Shown here piece after piece: positions 6,555 through 33,234 of a stretch of 38,500 nucleotides of DNA; the stretch's first letter is position 1; each line of letters begins with the position of its first letter. The stretch spans positions 1 to 38,500 of the IMG/VR virus record IMGVR_UViG_3300046471_000227; one strand, 5' to 3'. Below the pieces are notes generated by a model. That model was given only the letters and a program-made list of their open reading frames with translations. It had not been told where the DNA came from and searched no databases. The stretch comes from a virus. Position numbers and translations under genes: made by a program.

Positions 6555-6929
6555 TTGAAAAGTTGTGCATCTCCGGAAGACTTGGACGTTGGAGTGGGTG
6601 AGCGATTGCGCGAAGAAAGAACGCGCTTAGGGCTCAACCAAGATGCCTTTGCACAGCAGGGCGGCATCACTCGCAATACCCAGGGCAGCTATGAAAAGGG
6701 CGAACGCAACCCGGATTCCGCCTACCTTACAGCCGTGGCCAAGGCCGGAGTGGACGTGCTTTACGTCTTGACCGGTGCGCGTTTACCTGCAGCTGCCAGT
6801 GGCCTGAACGCGGCTGAAGATCAGCTTCTTCAGCAATTCCGAATCTTGTCTGACTATGACCAAAAAGCTGTGCATCGCATCGTAGGTGCCATGGCCGAAG
6901 TCACCCACCTTTCCGCTGCCAAGAAATAA
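6555..6929 (+). CDS. CI-like HTH (XRE) repressor
   Basis: A 124-aa XRE-family repressor that should keep the lysogenic state. The helix-turn-helix spans about residues 15-70 (RLREERTRLGLNQDAFA, then TRNTQGSYEKGERNPDSAYL), followed by the common VDVLYVLTGAR segment and a helical C-terminus. It has no LexA-type peptidase domain, so induction cannot use RecA-stimulated self-cleavage of this protein. The start is TTG with AAGGGTG upstream; there is no in-frame ATG before the HTH. It diverges from the Cro-like gene across the operator at 6522-6537. Confidence 0.9.
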   Translation: MKSCASPEDLDVGVGERLREERTRLGLNQDAFAQQGGITRNTQGSYEKGERNPDSAYLTAVAKAGVDVLYVLTGARLPAAASGLNAAEDQLLQQFRILSDYDQKAVHRIVGAMAEVTHLSAAKK

Positions 6930-7367: not shown

Positions 7368-7661
7368 CTATTTTGCGGCTTTCACAATCATTGGTCTGGT
7401 TCTGGGCGTAACGGCTTTCACGACATCATCAAGTACCGCTTTCCCCATCACGGTAAAATAATGCGCAGCCCAGGCATGGCGATCAGTGTCTTTCACGAAA
7501 GCCGCGTCTTCGGCGAAAGACTTGGCCAGGCAAAGGAAATTCGAGGCTTGGGCCAGCGCATCTTTAACCGGAACGCCAGCACTGACGTGGAACAGCGGAT
7601 TGTCACCGCAGTAAATGAAAGGGGTGTAGCCGATGGTTTTTTCTTCGACTTCTTCGATCAT
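7368..7661 (-). CDS. DUF3077 domain protein
   Basis: A 97-aa protein of the DUF3077 family, which is found mostly in Pseudomonas. The TIGYTPF, LFHVSAGVPVKDAL, ASNFLCLAKSF and WAAHYFTVMGKAVLDD segments are typical. Function is unknown. The frame stays open upstream to 8042, but ATG 7661 has GGAGG six bases before it. The upstream translation is Arg/Ser-rich and crosses a strong RNA structure, so it is not likely to be protein. The ATG overlaps the stop of a 31-aa upstream ORF (ATGA). It is a single leftward cargo gene. Confidence 0.85.
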   Translation of the reverse strand: MIEEVEEKTIGYTPFIYCGDNPLFHVSAGVPVKDALAQASNFLCLAKSFAEDAAFVKDTDRHAWAAHYFTVMGKAVLDDVVKAVTPRTRPMIVKAAK

Positions 7662-7753
7662 TGACCACCTCCACAGGTGGAGAGGTGTTGAATGACGAGT
7701 GAGGTACTGCATACAGGGTGAGGCGGAACGTATATTGCCGCAACTTTGTGCAT
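7658..7753 (-). CDS. 31-aa upstream ORF, possible leader peptide of the DUF3077 gene
   Basis: ATG at 7753 is preceded by AAGGAG at seven-base spacing. The frame runs 31 codons and ends in TGA, overlapping the DUF3077 ATG as ATGA. Its C-terminus (CGGGQ) is encoded by the Shine-Dalgarno of the downstream gene. The peptide resembles nothing I know. The perfect SD and overlapping stop suggest translational coupling rather than a functional protein. Its SD can pair with 7836-7847. Confidence 0.4.
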   Translation of the reverse strand: MHKVAAIYVPPHPVCSTSLVIQHLSTCGGGQ

Positions 7754-7881
7754 GGTCTAACTCCTTGACATAGGGAGCTACCACTTTCGTTTCCAAGCGA
7801 ATGGGTGGCAGCTGTACGCAGGTTGGAAACCGGGAGTCAAGGAGACCGGCACGCCCTAAAGGCGTCCCACGCACAGCCGCC
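7754..7881 (-). promoter_or_regulatory. structured 5' leader of the DUF3077 gene
   Basis: Read on the minus strand, GGCGGCTGTGCGTGG (7881-7867) pairs with CCTGCGTACAGCTGCC (7822-7807) in about 15 pairs including G-U. The stem encloses an inner ACGCC/GGCGT hairpin (7851-7865) and GGTT/AACC (7821-7831). CTCCTTGAC in this loop region is the exact complement of GTCAAGGAG (7769-7761), which holds the SD of the 31-aa ORF. The sequence therefore supports a cis-regulatory RNA able to hide that SD. A GTTTCCAAGC element occurs at 7789-7798 and again at 7951-7960. Confidence 0.5.
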
Positions 7882-8152
7882 ATAACACAAGTGTGCAGTC
7901 GTAAAAATACGCTGACGCATGTGAGGGGGCGCTGTTGCGTGACTCGACGGGTTTCCAAGCCCGGTCGCTGAAATGTGCAGCGACGTCTGGAGAATATTCC
8001 GGCGAATCGAAGGCTAGCAAGGCGCTTGCCTGCCAAAAGCACCTAAGTCGTGCTTACTTACGCAACTCGCGGATTTTGCCTACAACTTCGATTCGAGTCA
8101 CTCGATATTCTGATTGCCGAGCCAAATAGGCGGTGGGGCTTTGGTCAAAAAA

Positions 8153-8262: not shown

Positions 8263-8517
8263 ATGAACAATAAACAGCTCAGTACGCTCAAAGCCATATT
8301 CTCCAAGCCTGTACCCAACTCACTCGAATGGGCTCGAATCGAGGCCCTTTTTGGTGCAGCGGGTGCCCAGACTATCGAAGGCAATGGTTCCCGAGTGCGT
8401 TTTGAATTGAATGGCGTGGTTGCCACCTTTCATCGACCCCACCCAGACAAAGAAGCAAAGCCCTACCAAGTGCGTGACGCGCGGGCTTTCCTTGAGCAAG
8501 CAGGAGTCATCCCGTGA
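8263..8517 (+). CDS. hicA: HicA-type toxin (mRNA interferase)
   Basis: An 84-aa toxin of a type II HicAB system; HicA proteins cleave mRNA. The family features seen are SLEWARIEALFGAAGA, the NGSRVRFELNG strands, and the catalytic-type His in VATFHRPHP, followed by PYQVRDARAFLEQAGVI. It overlaps hicB by four bases (GTGA). It lacks a clear SD, so translation may be weak, which would suit a toxin gene. It probably stabilises the prophage or acts in phage defence; this is inferred. Confidence 0.9.
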   Translation: MNNKQLSTLKAIFSKPVPNSLEWARIEALFGAAGAQTIEGNGSRVRFELNGVVATFHRPHPDKEAKPYQVRDARAFLEQAGVIP

Positions 8518-8846
8518 ACGTAATGAACTACAACGGCTATGCCGCCCGAATTGAGTACAGTGATGAAGATGGCCTATTTGTCGGCCACATCGCCGGTATC
8601 AAAGATGTCGTTGGCTTCCACGGTGAGTCGGTCGCCGAACTGCGCAAAGCTTTCCAAGAGGCCGTAACTGACTACCTCGAAACCTGCGCCAAGCTGGGCC
8701 GTGCCCCCCAAAAACCCTATTCGGGTAATCTCAGCTTACGCCTAGCGCCGGCACTCCATGCGACAGTCGCCGTGAAGGCACAGCTAGCTCACAAAAGCAT
8801 CAATCAATGGGTGGCTGACGTCCTAGATCGCGAGGCGCACGCCTGA
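8514..8846 (+). CDS. hicB: HicB-type antitoxin
   Basis: A 110-aa antitoxin that neutralises HicA and represses the operon. The N-terminal domain shows the RNase-H-like HicB pattern (YSDEDGLFVGHIAGIKDVVGFHGESVAELRKAFQEAVTDYL). The C-terminal part (LSLRLAPALHATVAVKAQLAHKSINQWVADVL) is a ribbon-helix-helix or Arc-type DNA-binding segment. It starts with GTG overlapping the hicA stop; an in-frame ATG lies two codons later. Confidence 0.9.
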   Translation: MNVMNYNGYAARIEYSDEDGLFVGHIAGIKDVVGFHGESVAELRKAFQEAVTDYLETCAKLGRAPQKPYSGNLSLRLAPALHATVAVKAQLAHKSINQWVADVLDREAHA

Positions 8847-10696: not shown

Positions 10697-11128
10697 ATGA
10701 GTGTCACCATCCTCGGCCCGCTGTCGGAGGGGGGCGAAAAGCTCCCGCTATATTCCTTTCAAATTCCCGCGGGTTTCCCTTCTCCGGCGGCCGATCACAT
10801 CGAGAAGCACATCTCACTGGACGAGATTTTTGAGATCCGCGCTCCCCATGTATACCTGGCCAAGATCGAAGGCGACAGCATGGAAGGAGCAGGAATATTT
10901 TGTGGGGACATGGTCGTTGTCAATCGCAGCCTGACCGCAGAACATGGCGATATTGTCATTGCCGGCCTCAACTCCGAACCGGTCTGCAAGCGCCTACATT
11001 TGCGCGACAGCGGCATTATTCTCATGTCAGCCAATACCAAATACCCGCCACGCTATGTGATGGAGGGCGACGAGTTGGTTATCTGGGGAGTGGTGACGTA
11101 CAGCGTGCGCGATCATGCCAAATCGTGA
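10697..11128 (+). CDS. umuD: UmuD-like translesion polymerase accessory protein (S24 family)
   Basis: A 143-aa LexA-like S24 peptidase. Self-cleavage would occur at Ala25-Gly26 in the IPAGFPSPAAD motif. The catalytic dyad is Ser61 (GDSMEGAG) and Lys98 (VCKRLHL). The cleaved form assembles with UmuC into DNA polymerase V for mutagenic bypass of lesions. The length matches UmuD. It directly follows the LexA box and overlaps umuC by 14 bases, forming a two-gene SOS operon carried by the prophage. Confidence 0.95.
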   Translation: MSVTILGPLSEGGEKLPLYSFQIPAGFPSPAADHIEKHISLDEIFEIRAPHVYLAKIEGDSMEGAGIFCGDMVVVNRSLTAEHGDIVIAGLNSEPVCKRLHLRDSGIILMSANTKYPPRYVMEGDELVIWGVVTYSVRDHAKS

Positions 11129-12395
11129 GCCTGTTTTTGCCCTCATTGACTGCAACAGTTTCTACGCAAGCTGCGAGCGCGTCTTTCGACCAGACCTGGC
11201 AAAGACGCCGATCGTCGTTTTGAGCAACAACGATGGCTGCGTCATCGCACGCAGTTACGATGCGAAACCCTTTGTGAAAATGGGCGCACCTTACTTTCAA
11301 ATCAAAGATGTGTTGCGCCAGAACGGCGTCCAGGTATTCAGCAGCAACTACGCGCTATATGGCGACATGAGCGAACGGGTCATGAGCATCATCGAATCCA
11401 TGGTGCCCACCGTCGAGGTGTACAGCATTGATGAGGCCTTCGCCGATCTCACCGGCATTCCGGGAGACCTGACCACCTTCGGCCGAGCAATTCGCGCTGC
11501 CGTCTATAAAGGAACGGGCATTCCGGTTGGCGTTGGCATTGCACCGACCAAAACCCTGGCAAAGCTGGCTAACCATACGGCCAAACGTTTGCAAGCGCAC
11601 ACCGGTGGCGTTGTCGATATTTGCGATCCGATCAAGCGCGACTGGGTTTTGCGGAATACTGATGTCGCGGAAGTCTGGGGCGTGGGCCGGCGAATGAAAG
11701 CTCACCTCGACGCTATGCAAATCAAGACAGCGATGGACTTGGCGAAAACTGATCCACGGACGCTCCGGCAGAAGTTTAGCGTTGTGATCGAAAAGACCGC
11801 GCGTGAATTAGCGGGTACTTCCTGCCTGGAACTCACCGATGCCGAGCCGGCCAAGCAAGAGATCTGCAGCAGCCGTATGTTCGGCAAGCGCCTGACAACC
11901 ATCGAGCCCATCAAGGAAGCGGTGGCCACCTACGTGGATCGAGCATCGGAAAAGCTGCGGGCGCAAAACTCACTGTGCAAAAAAATCCGCGTCAGCATTC
12001 GCACCGGCATGTTCAGCCCAGAGGAAGCCAAGTATGCCAACGGTGCACTTGTTGAATTACCTTACCCGACCAACGATGTGAGACTGCTGACGAAGGCCGC
12101 GACCGAGGCTATCAATCGTCTATTCCGCCCGGGCTTTAAATACAGCAAGGCAGAAGTGTTGCTGATGGATCTGCGAAAGCCGGGAGAGTTTACCGATGAC
12201 CTTTTCGCTCAGTCGCAACCCGCAGCGGCAGAAAAGGTTATGGGAATCTTGGACGAGATCAATCAGAGGTGGGGGAGAGGGACGCTGCGAGCGGGTAGCG
12301 TGCCGGCAGACCCTGATTGGGGGATGCGGCGAGAGATGATGAGCCAAAGTTTTACCACGAAGCTTGATCAGCTTTGGATTGTGAAATGCTGTTAG
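11115..12395 (+). CDS. umuC: UmuC-like Y-family DNA polymerase
   Basis: A 426-aa catalytic subunit of an error-prone DNA polymerase V. Motifs seen are FALIDCNSFYASCERVF at the N-terminus (metal-binding Asp), VVLSNNDGCVIARS, YSIDEAFADLTG (catalytic Asp-Glu) and GVGIAPTKTLAKLANH. The little-finger domain follows, and the C-terminus ends in the usual DUF4113-like region (RRGTL-like WGRGTLRAGS, MRREMMSQSFTTKLDQL). It is full length and intact. The start overlaps the umuD-like gene. Expression should follow the SOS box upstream. Confidence 0.95.
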   Translation: MPNREPVFALIDCNSFYASCERVFRPDLAKTPIVVLSNNDGCVIARSYDAKPFVKMGAPYFQIKDVLRQNGVQVFSSNYALYGDMSERVMSIIESMVPTVEVYSIDEAFADLTGIPGDLTTFGRAIRAAVYKGTGIPVGVGIAPTKTLAKLANHTAKRLQAHTGGVVDICDPIKRDWVLRNTDVAEVWGVGRRMKAHLDAMQIKTAMDLAKTDPRTLRQKFSVVIEKTARELAGTSCLELTDAEPAKQEICSSRMFGKRLTTIEPIKEAVATYVDRASEKLRAQNSLCKKIRVSIRTGMFSPEEAKYANGALVELPYPTNDVRLLTKAATEAINRLFRPGFKYSKAEVLLMDLRKPGEFTDDLFAQSQPAAAEKVMGILDEINQRWGRGTLRAGSVPADPDWGMRREMMSQSFTTKLDQLWIVKCC

Positions 12396-15648: not shown

Positions 15649-16500
15649 TCAGCTGACGCTGATCAACCGCCTAGCTATCCACTCCGCCACCTGCGTAACA
15701 ACGGCATTTCCGGCACCAAAAGCCTCCGCAAGGTTTGCCGCATCCAGTCCGAGGCAAAGCCCATCATCTTCAGCCGCTCGCTGCCGCTCAGCCATCTGAT
15801 CCCATCCGTTCGCGTGAGCGACGAGAGTGGTACAGCCCATAGCGATCTGTGAGGCGGCTCTGTCCGCGAGTAGAGTATTGGCAGCCCAGGCATCCGCTGG
15901 GCGTGGCCAGTGCTGCGATTGAGACGCTGGAGGTATTGCATCCACTGGCGCGGCGTCAGCCAGGAACTGGAAGGGGGGCATTTGTCGATAACCGGCGACC
16001 AGGAATATTCGACGACGTTGCTGGGGGACTCCGAAATATTGAGCATTAAGCACTCGCCAAAATCCCACATACCCGCAGTCCGCAAGGGCCCGGATGACTG
16101 TTTCAAAGTCGTGGCTATCGTTGACAGCGAGCAGGTTAACGACGTTCTCAAGCACCACCCAGCGAGGTTGAATTTCCTTGAGGATTCGTATGACTTCCCA
16201 AAACAATCCGCTGCGCTCGCCGCGTAGTCCTCGGGTATCTCGGTTGCTTTCTCGGGCGCCGGCGATGCTGATGTCCTGACAGGGGAAGCCTGCCGTGAGG
16301 ACGTCGACAGAACAGAGGTTGTGTGCGCCGCAGTGGCGCACGTCTTCAAATTGCTGTGCATGGGGAAATCGGTCGGTAAGCACAGCCCGGTTGATGGGGT
16401 TGAGTTCGACTTGCCAGGCGCTGCGGTATCCCGCGTTTTCAAATCCGACATCAAAGCCTCCTATGCCTGCGAACAGGCTGCCAAGGGTGGGGTGGGGCAT
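15649..16500 (-). CDS. dcm: phage C5-cytosine DNA methyltransferase
   Basis: A 283-aa C5-cytosine methyltransferase, transferring methyl from S-adenosylmethionine to DNA cytosine. Motif I is SLFAGIGGFDVGFENAGY (8-25). The catalytic Cys74 is in GFPCQDIS. ENV (118-120), QQRRRIFLVAG (160-170) and the C-terminal GNAVVTQVAEWIARRL complete the order. The target-recognition region between is short, so the enzyme is compact but appears intact. No partner restriction gene is adjacent, so it probably protects phage DNA from host restriction. It overlaps com by 40 bases and is last in the leftward F operon, so expression should be late and may depend on Com. Confidence 0.93.
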   Translation of the reverse strand: MPHPTLGSLFAGIGGFDVGFENAGYRSAWQVELNPINRAVLTDRFPHAQQFEDVRHCGAHNLCSVDVLTAGFPCQDISIAGARESNRDTRGLRGERSGLFWEVIRILKEIQPRWVVLENVVNLLAVNDSHDFETVIRALADCGYVGFWRVLNAQYFGVPQQRRRIFLVAGYRQMPPFQFLADAAPVDAIPPASQSQHWPRPADAWAANTLLADRAASQIAMGCTTLVAHANGWDQMAERQRAAEDDGLCLGLDAANLAEAFGAGNAVVTQVAEWIARRLISVS

Positions 16501-32403: not shown

Positions 32404-33234
32404 TCAGCAGTCGGTCACTACCGAGTGGTCACCGCCGGTTACCGGAGGGCGCGTCTTCTGATTGGGATTTTGAGTGGTGGAGAGCAGGGTCTTCAGTTCG
32501 GTGAAGTCTTTGCTGAGTTGATCCAGTCGGGTTTGCAGGCCTTTTGCAAATTTCTGCTCCGCAGCCATTTGGGCGGGCAGATCCTTGACATGTTCGGCGA
32601 TGGTTTCGACTGCTTGGCTGATATGAGCGAACTCGTTGTCATCCTTGCTTTGCTTGCCGCCGAGCAGGTTTCTCACTGTGCTGAGCAGATGAGCACCGAT
32701 GCTCGGTTTTTCTTCGACTTCCTCGAATGTCAGCTCGGTTTCCAGCGCCTCGGTGAACATCGAGGTCGCGGAATAGTGACGATCCTTGAACGGGCTGACG
32801 TCCGGTTTCTGGGCCGAGAACGACAGCACGTCGGTGCCAAGGCTGGCCGGTGAATCTGTCACACCGAGACCTACGATGTAAGCCTCACCGGTATCGGCGA
32901 AGCTGTCGTCGATTTCGATTGAGGTGTAGATCTTCTGTTTTGCTTTGTTCATGGCGATCAGGTCGGGCGTCGGCTCGACCTGAGCAAACAGAGCCAGTTT
33001 CTTTTGGCCGTTTATGTCCACTTCTTCGGTTTTCACCGCCAATACATCGCCGTAGGCCTTGAATGGGCTGTCGGGTAGCAAGCTGCGGAAATGCTCAAGC
33101 CAGATCCGCGCGCCGTAGGTGGATGGGTTGAAGTTCTTCGCAGCCTGTTCCAGCCAGTTGCGTTTGATGGTGCGCTTGTCTGAGGTAGCGCCCTCGACGG
33201 CGACGCGGAACCAGTTGCTGCGGAATTTCTTCAT
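32404..33234 (-). CDS. O: capsid scaffold and protease gpO
   Basis: A 276-aa scaffold/protease of the P2 gpO family. The N-terminal serine protease domain has FNPSTYGARIWLEHFRS (His) and GLGVTDSPASLGTD (Ser). The C-terminal half is a helical scaffold with Gln/Lys coiled coil. I start it at ATG 33234 (MKKFRSNWFRVAVEG) with GAGG nine bases upstream. First gene of the leftward O operon, divergent from P. Confidence 0.94.
   Translation of the reverse strand: MKKFRSNWFRVAVEGATSDKRTIKRNWLEQAAKNFNPSTYGARIWLEHFRSLLPDSPFKAYGDVLAVKTEEVDINGQKKLALFAQVEPTPDLIAMNKAKQKIYTSIEIDDSFADTGEAYIVGLGVTDSPASLGTDVLSFSAQKPDVSPFKDRHYSATSMFTEALETELTFEEVEEKPSIGAHLLSTVRNLLGGKQSKDDNEFAHISQAVETIAEHVKDLPAQMAAEQKFAKGLQTRLDQLSKDFTELKTLLSTTQNPNQKTRPPVTGGDHSVVTDC

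Follow-up and report, generated by a model that had tools for sequence, protein, structure and literature searches.

A DUF3077 gene behind a probable C4 antisense RNA module in an apparent P2-like Pseudomonas prophage

The leader of a DUF3077 gene in an IMG/VR virus record is very probably part of a phage C4 antisense RNA module of the P1 immI and Gifsy-1 isrK type, with DUF3077 as cargo. The stretch analysed, 38,500 nucleotides long and called the window below, resembles a Pseudomonas prophage of the P2-like kind, with Ogr, a tail sheath, a gpD-like hub and a terminase. On its minus strand the elements follow each other in the order a1b1, C4, a2b2 with the SD box, a 31-aa upstream ORF (uORF), an ATGA overlap and the DUF3077 gene (7368..7661, 97 aa). 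The family of the latter, named already in an earlier reading made from the letters of the DNA (the sequence-only reading), agrees with a Pfam match (PF11275, E 4.6e-29). An apparently unknown leader becomes in this way a testable antisense circuit.

The Rfam scan assigns the leader at 7801..7887 (minus strand, as are all elements of the module) to the C4 antisense RNA family RF01695 with 74.6 bits, above the curated cut-off of 45. In the whole window only this family and c4-a1b1 (RF03163; 7944..7997, 49.4 bits, cut-off 46.7), representing the upstream copy of the target, exceed their cut-offs. An isrK-like stretch (RF01394) at 7902..7984 scores 35.2 bits, below the cut-off of 50 that is passed by three relatives of the locus (L044, L046, L048). 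The c4 and c4-a1b1 motifs were listed by Weinberg et al. 2010 (PMC2864571), and Citron and Schuster, as cited in PMC8198154, discovered C4 in phages P1 and P7. Judged by its sequence, the leader can be recognised as a version of the antisense RNA known from these two phages; it is thus a described element, although the sequence-only reading knew of none in front of this gene family. The proposed stem of about 15 pairs (7881-7867 with 7822-7807) exists and is slightly longer: the main stem of C4, the P1 helix, has 17 pairs (7882-7866 with 7822-7806) and encloses two smaller hairpins. None of 200 dinucleotide shuffles folds as well as the leader (z -3.4).

Relatives of the DUF3077 protein were fetched from viruses (9) and genomes (60), and 40 of the loci were scanned for C4. 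In 37 of these 40 it lies just upstream in the same orientation; this recurrence, together with the match to a curated family (E 1.6e-14), indicates that the leader structure is more than chance. The exceptions are L012, where only the 3' half of C4 stands next to an intact target, and L069 and L070, where C4 is found elsewhere on the opposite strand. The loci have two architectures. In type A, to which the window belongs, C4 covers the SD box of a uORF overlapping DUF3077. In type B (L011, L013-L015 and others) it covers the SD box of DUF3077 itself, and there is no intervening small ORF.

The stem, the loop complementarity, the SD box, the 31-aa ORF and its ATGA overlap were all present when the sequence was checked. 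The b' loop CTCCTTGAC (7836..7844) is a perfect 9-mer complement of the uORF SD box GTCAAGGAG (7761..7769), and this complementarity, noticed in the sequence-only reading, corresponds to the b'-b2 contact of the C4 system. The second contact, a'-a2, is present too: the a' segment GTTTCCAA (7823..7830) is complementary to TTGGAAAC at 7789..7796. The a2 target was assigned from sequence and pair counts, the b2 target from sequence and covariation with b'. Between the two targets, GTGGTAGCT (7776..7784) can form pairs with the main stem of C4, namely with its 3' arm (AGCTGCCAC); in the relatives 87.7% of cells of this pairing are paired, with weak covariation.

The sequence-only reading had made its proposal depend on compensatory changes among homologues, and these are found in the helices and in the contacts alike. 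In a set of 30 distinct sequences, pairing is kept at 99.4% in the C4 helices, where 5 pairs have changed in both partners, and at 91.2% in the C4-target contacts, where 7 pairs have done so; these counts are inflated by the relatedness of the sequences, and the ribosome constrains the GGAG core in any case. In the helices, both-sided changes fall mostly in P2, the main stem showing chiefly one-sided ones. The covariation of the contacts, 0.197, exceeds that of shuffles (0.118) and that obtained after sliding (0.062 at most). Both-sided changes affect five of the nine pairs of the b'-SD contact and one pair of the a'-a2 contact, the latter in 8 sequences. A clear covarying case is L061, with the loop CTCCGTGAC and the target GTCACGGAG. 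In a minority of relatives the b'/SD match is short or imperfect (longest Watson-Crick run 5).

The energies of pairing point in the same direction. With 25 distinct loops, the mean for cognate b'/target duplexes is -12.7 kcal/mol versus -9.1 for non-cognate ones, and none of 20,000 permutations was as good. For the inner part of C4 in the window, the duplex with the a2b2 target has -28.5 kcal/mol, that with a1b1 -22.8, and that with a control stretch of DUF3077 -15.9. RNAcofold did not display the C4-target contact, since the fold of C4 itself dominates.

Members of the C4 family are expected to be processed from a precursor by RNase P. By analogy with P1/P7 and Gifsy-1, we infer transcription, processing, action in trans, repression and a decoy role for this locus as follows. 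a1b1, C4, the a2b2 target, the 31-aa uORF and DUF3077 would all be part of a single minus-strand transcript, from which C4 RNA would probably be cut out. The b' loop would pair with the uORF SD box, and a' with the site just upstream of it. This would stop translation of the uORF and, by ATGA coupling, that of DUF3077, whose own SD box is predicted to be hidden by a hairpin. C4 could pair with the a1b1 copy as well, which may titrate it as a decoy and so relieve repression. The mechanism of C4 has been published (PMC5320573, PMC8198154), and the members from P1 and P7 are processed from a precursor and act in trans (PMC5320573). The earlier suggestion that the leader RNA can hide the SD box of the upstream ORF, and hence may control the coupled translation of DUF3077, is upheld at the level of sequence.

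A scan of the region with the sigma-70 consensus returned no promoter match. About 75 nt upstream of a1b1 there is a block TTGTAGGCAAAATCCG (8070..8085, minus strand) that is kept in phage and chromosomal relatives (alignment of 74 loci). One possibility is that it is part of a promoter or operator, or it may be something else. In the P1-type operon the promoter is repressed by the phage repressor of the C1 type; what the window offers in this respect is the block just described, the empty consensus scan and a repressor-like gene at 6555-6929 (plus strand).

The uORF of the window (7658..7753, ATG at 7753) ends in a stop codon sharing an ATGA with the DUF3077 start (7661). A uORF of 31-38 codons is present in all 23 type-A loci examined; the overlap is 4 nt in 19 of them (ATGA, once GTGA) and 8 nt in 4. 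Its amino acids vary, its position and overlap are kept, and the 31-aa product of the window has no family match. The predicted hairpin that would bury the DUF3077 SD box (GGAGG, 7672-7668) is at 7666..7687. Across 23 loci this box has a mean probability of 0.07 of being unpaired, which rises to 0.15 when the upstream sequence is shuffled; this hints modestly at translational coupling. Apart from this, a 224-codon GTG-start frame (7368-8042, minus strand) crosses C4 in frame with DUF3077, and automatic annotation might call the two one gene. Annotated CDSs of the phages phiAH14b and U10 likewise lie over C4-like DNA.

An alternative explanation is that the C4-like domain acts in cis only, forming a pseudoknot with the downstream SD box, so that on and off states would belong to one RNA and there would be no free C4. 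Such a contact could form, as antisense and target are on the same predicted transcript, approximately 65 nt apart. However, family members from P1 and P7 are processed and trans-acting (PMC5320573), and a copy of the a1b1 target upstream of C4 makes little sense under strictly cis regulation, which makes this explanation improbable. To the sequence-only reading the two pairings looked like mutually exclusive or pseudoknotted states; an antisense RNA and its target, acting in trans and possibly also in cis, describe them better than two exclusive forms of a single switch. It is more doubtful still that a decayed, non-functional relic of C4 stands next to DUF3077. C4 is so numerous in Pseudomonas that some copies must be relics, and L012 has kept just half of it beside the target; on the other hand, the b'/SD match of the window is a perfect 9-mer, compensatory change keeps helices and contacts in the relatives, and the uORF overlap occurs in all type-A loci. 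Finally, a riboswitch or thermosensor, where a ligand or temperature would select between two exclusive structures, has in its favour only the apparent alternative pairings of the first reading and is hardly credible: the Rfam scan found no riboswitch or thermometer family in the window, the b' loop, which a sensor must conserve, changes together with the target, and both readings were rejected on these two grounds. Thus, of the three kinds of leader suggested initially, the sRNA-controlled one is favoured and the other two are left without support.

The preferred reading, a C4 module with DUF3077 as cargo, can be compared with three known systems. The immI operon c4-icd-ant of P1 and P7 has the same C4 fold (RF01695), the a'/b' segments, and the a1b1 and a2b2 copies of the target. 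In both cases the target overlaps the SD box of a short ORF that precedes the main gene and, in the window by analogy, would be coupled to it, and the 31-aa uORF holds the position of orfX/icd of P1 and of orf45 of Gifsy-1. The cargo is, however, no homologue of Ant. Thus the module appears to work like immI and yet is not filed as immI, since its main gene is DUF3077 and not the antirepressor Ant. The isrK-orf45-anrP region of the Salmonella prophage Gifsy-1 (PMC4825925) shares the small uORF, its AUGA overlap with the next gene and a variable peptide; there too, the overlap and position of orf45 relative to anrP are kept and the amino acids are variable (PMC4825925). An upstream a1b1/isrK-like element is another common feature, although in the window it is below the isrK cut-off. 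The difference is that DUF3077 replaces anrP as cargo. IsrK activates in trans, which the upstream element of the window might also do. The Group 1 C4-like sRNAs of A. baumannii (PMC5320573) resemble the Pseudomonas ones in having many copies per genome and variable segments that specify the target. Their targets were left open in that study, whereas many of the Pseudomonas copies have an evident target in the DUF3077 or DUF6124 gene beside them.

The structural model of DUF3077 shows a simple hairpin of helices (mean pLDDT 84). Foldseek found no match to this model in PDB at E <= 0.001, a sequence profile search of PDB returned nothing usable (best E 0.075), NCBIfam gave one match far below the cut-off, PADLOC gave nothing usable, and tblastn in the INPHARED phages yielded no match. 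The phage anti-activator Aqs1, considered as a structural match, has E 2.9 only and is not evidence. PHROGs contains no antirepressor family for the main gene, and Pfam gives DUF3077. A phage repressor-like gene is located beside the module (6555-6929, plus strand), and in phage PAJU2 an annotated anti-repressor Ant is directly downstream of C4. From this position beside a repressor-like gene and the arrangement in PAJU2 one might guess that DUF3077 acts like an antirepressor, which is speculation by analogy.

Among 149 genomes of the genus Pseudomonas, C4 was found in 138 and DUF3077 in 117. Six of them (G009, G050, G053, G065, G104, G123; all listed matches on one contig each) contain 24, 30, 35, 37, 42 and 55 copies of C4, scattered along the chromosome. 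In view of this number and scatter, it is unlikely that all copies are in prophages. Among the matches listed for these six genomes, at least 22 of the 26 strong DUF3077 genes are preceded by C4 on their own strand at a distance of no more than 600 bp. Downstream of 37 C4 loci, which are the best-scoring ones and not a random sample (among L076-L083 and L092-L120), the encoded proteins include DUF3077 (15), DUF6124 (13) and Bro-N (4).

These data indicate that C4 RNAs are far commoner in the chromosomes of Pseudomonas than one would expect from a role in phage immunity alone. Tentatively, with slightly more doubt than confidence, we propose that C4 of Pseudomonas has spread beyond phage immunity and serves as a built-in silencer of chromosome-wide genes for small helical proteins (DUF3077, DUF6124), with tens of copies per genome and loop and target specificities that vary between copies. 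DUF3077 and DUF6124 would then gain a shared control mechanism. In the literature outside subscription papers we found neither a link of C4 to DUF3077 or DUF6124 nor a mention of DUF6124; DUF3077 is named there in one paper, a furfural-tolerance study. The coupling of C4 to DUF3077-type genes across Pseudomonas thus seems previously undescribed. The genome-scale pattern raises the question of the role of the silenced small proteins and merits follow-up.

Several other features of the window may be mentioned. A HicA/HicB-like pair adjoins the module (8263-8846, plus strand). Further along the same strand the phage carries an S24 peptidase and, after it, a Y-family polymerase (10697-12395), a pair resembling UmuDC/RulAB. 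A C-5 cytosine DNA methylase is encoded amid the tail genes (15649-16500, minus strand). Finally, 20 bases at 32707-32726 (minus strand) match the beginning of the DUF3077 coding sequence at 95%, probably by chance.
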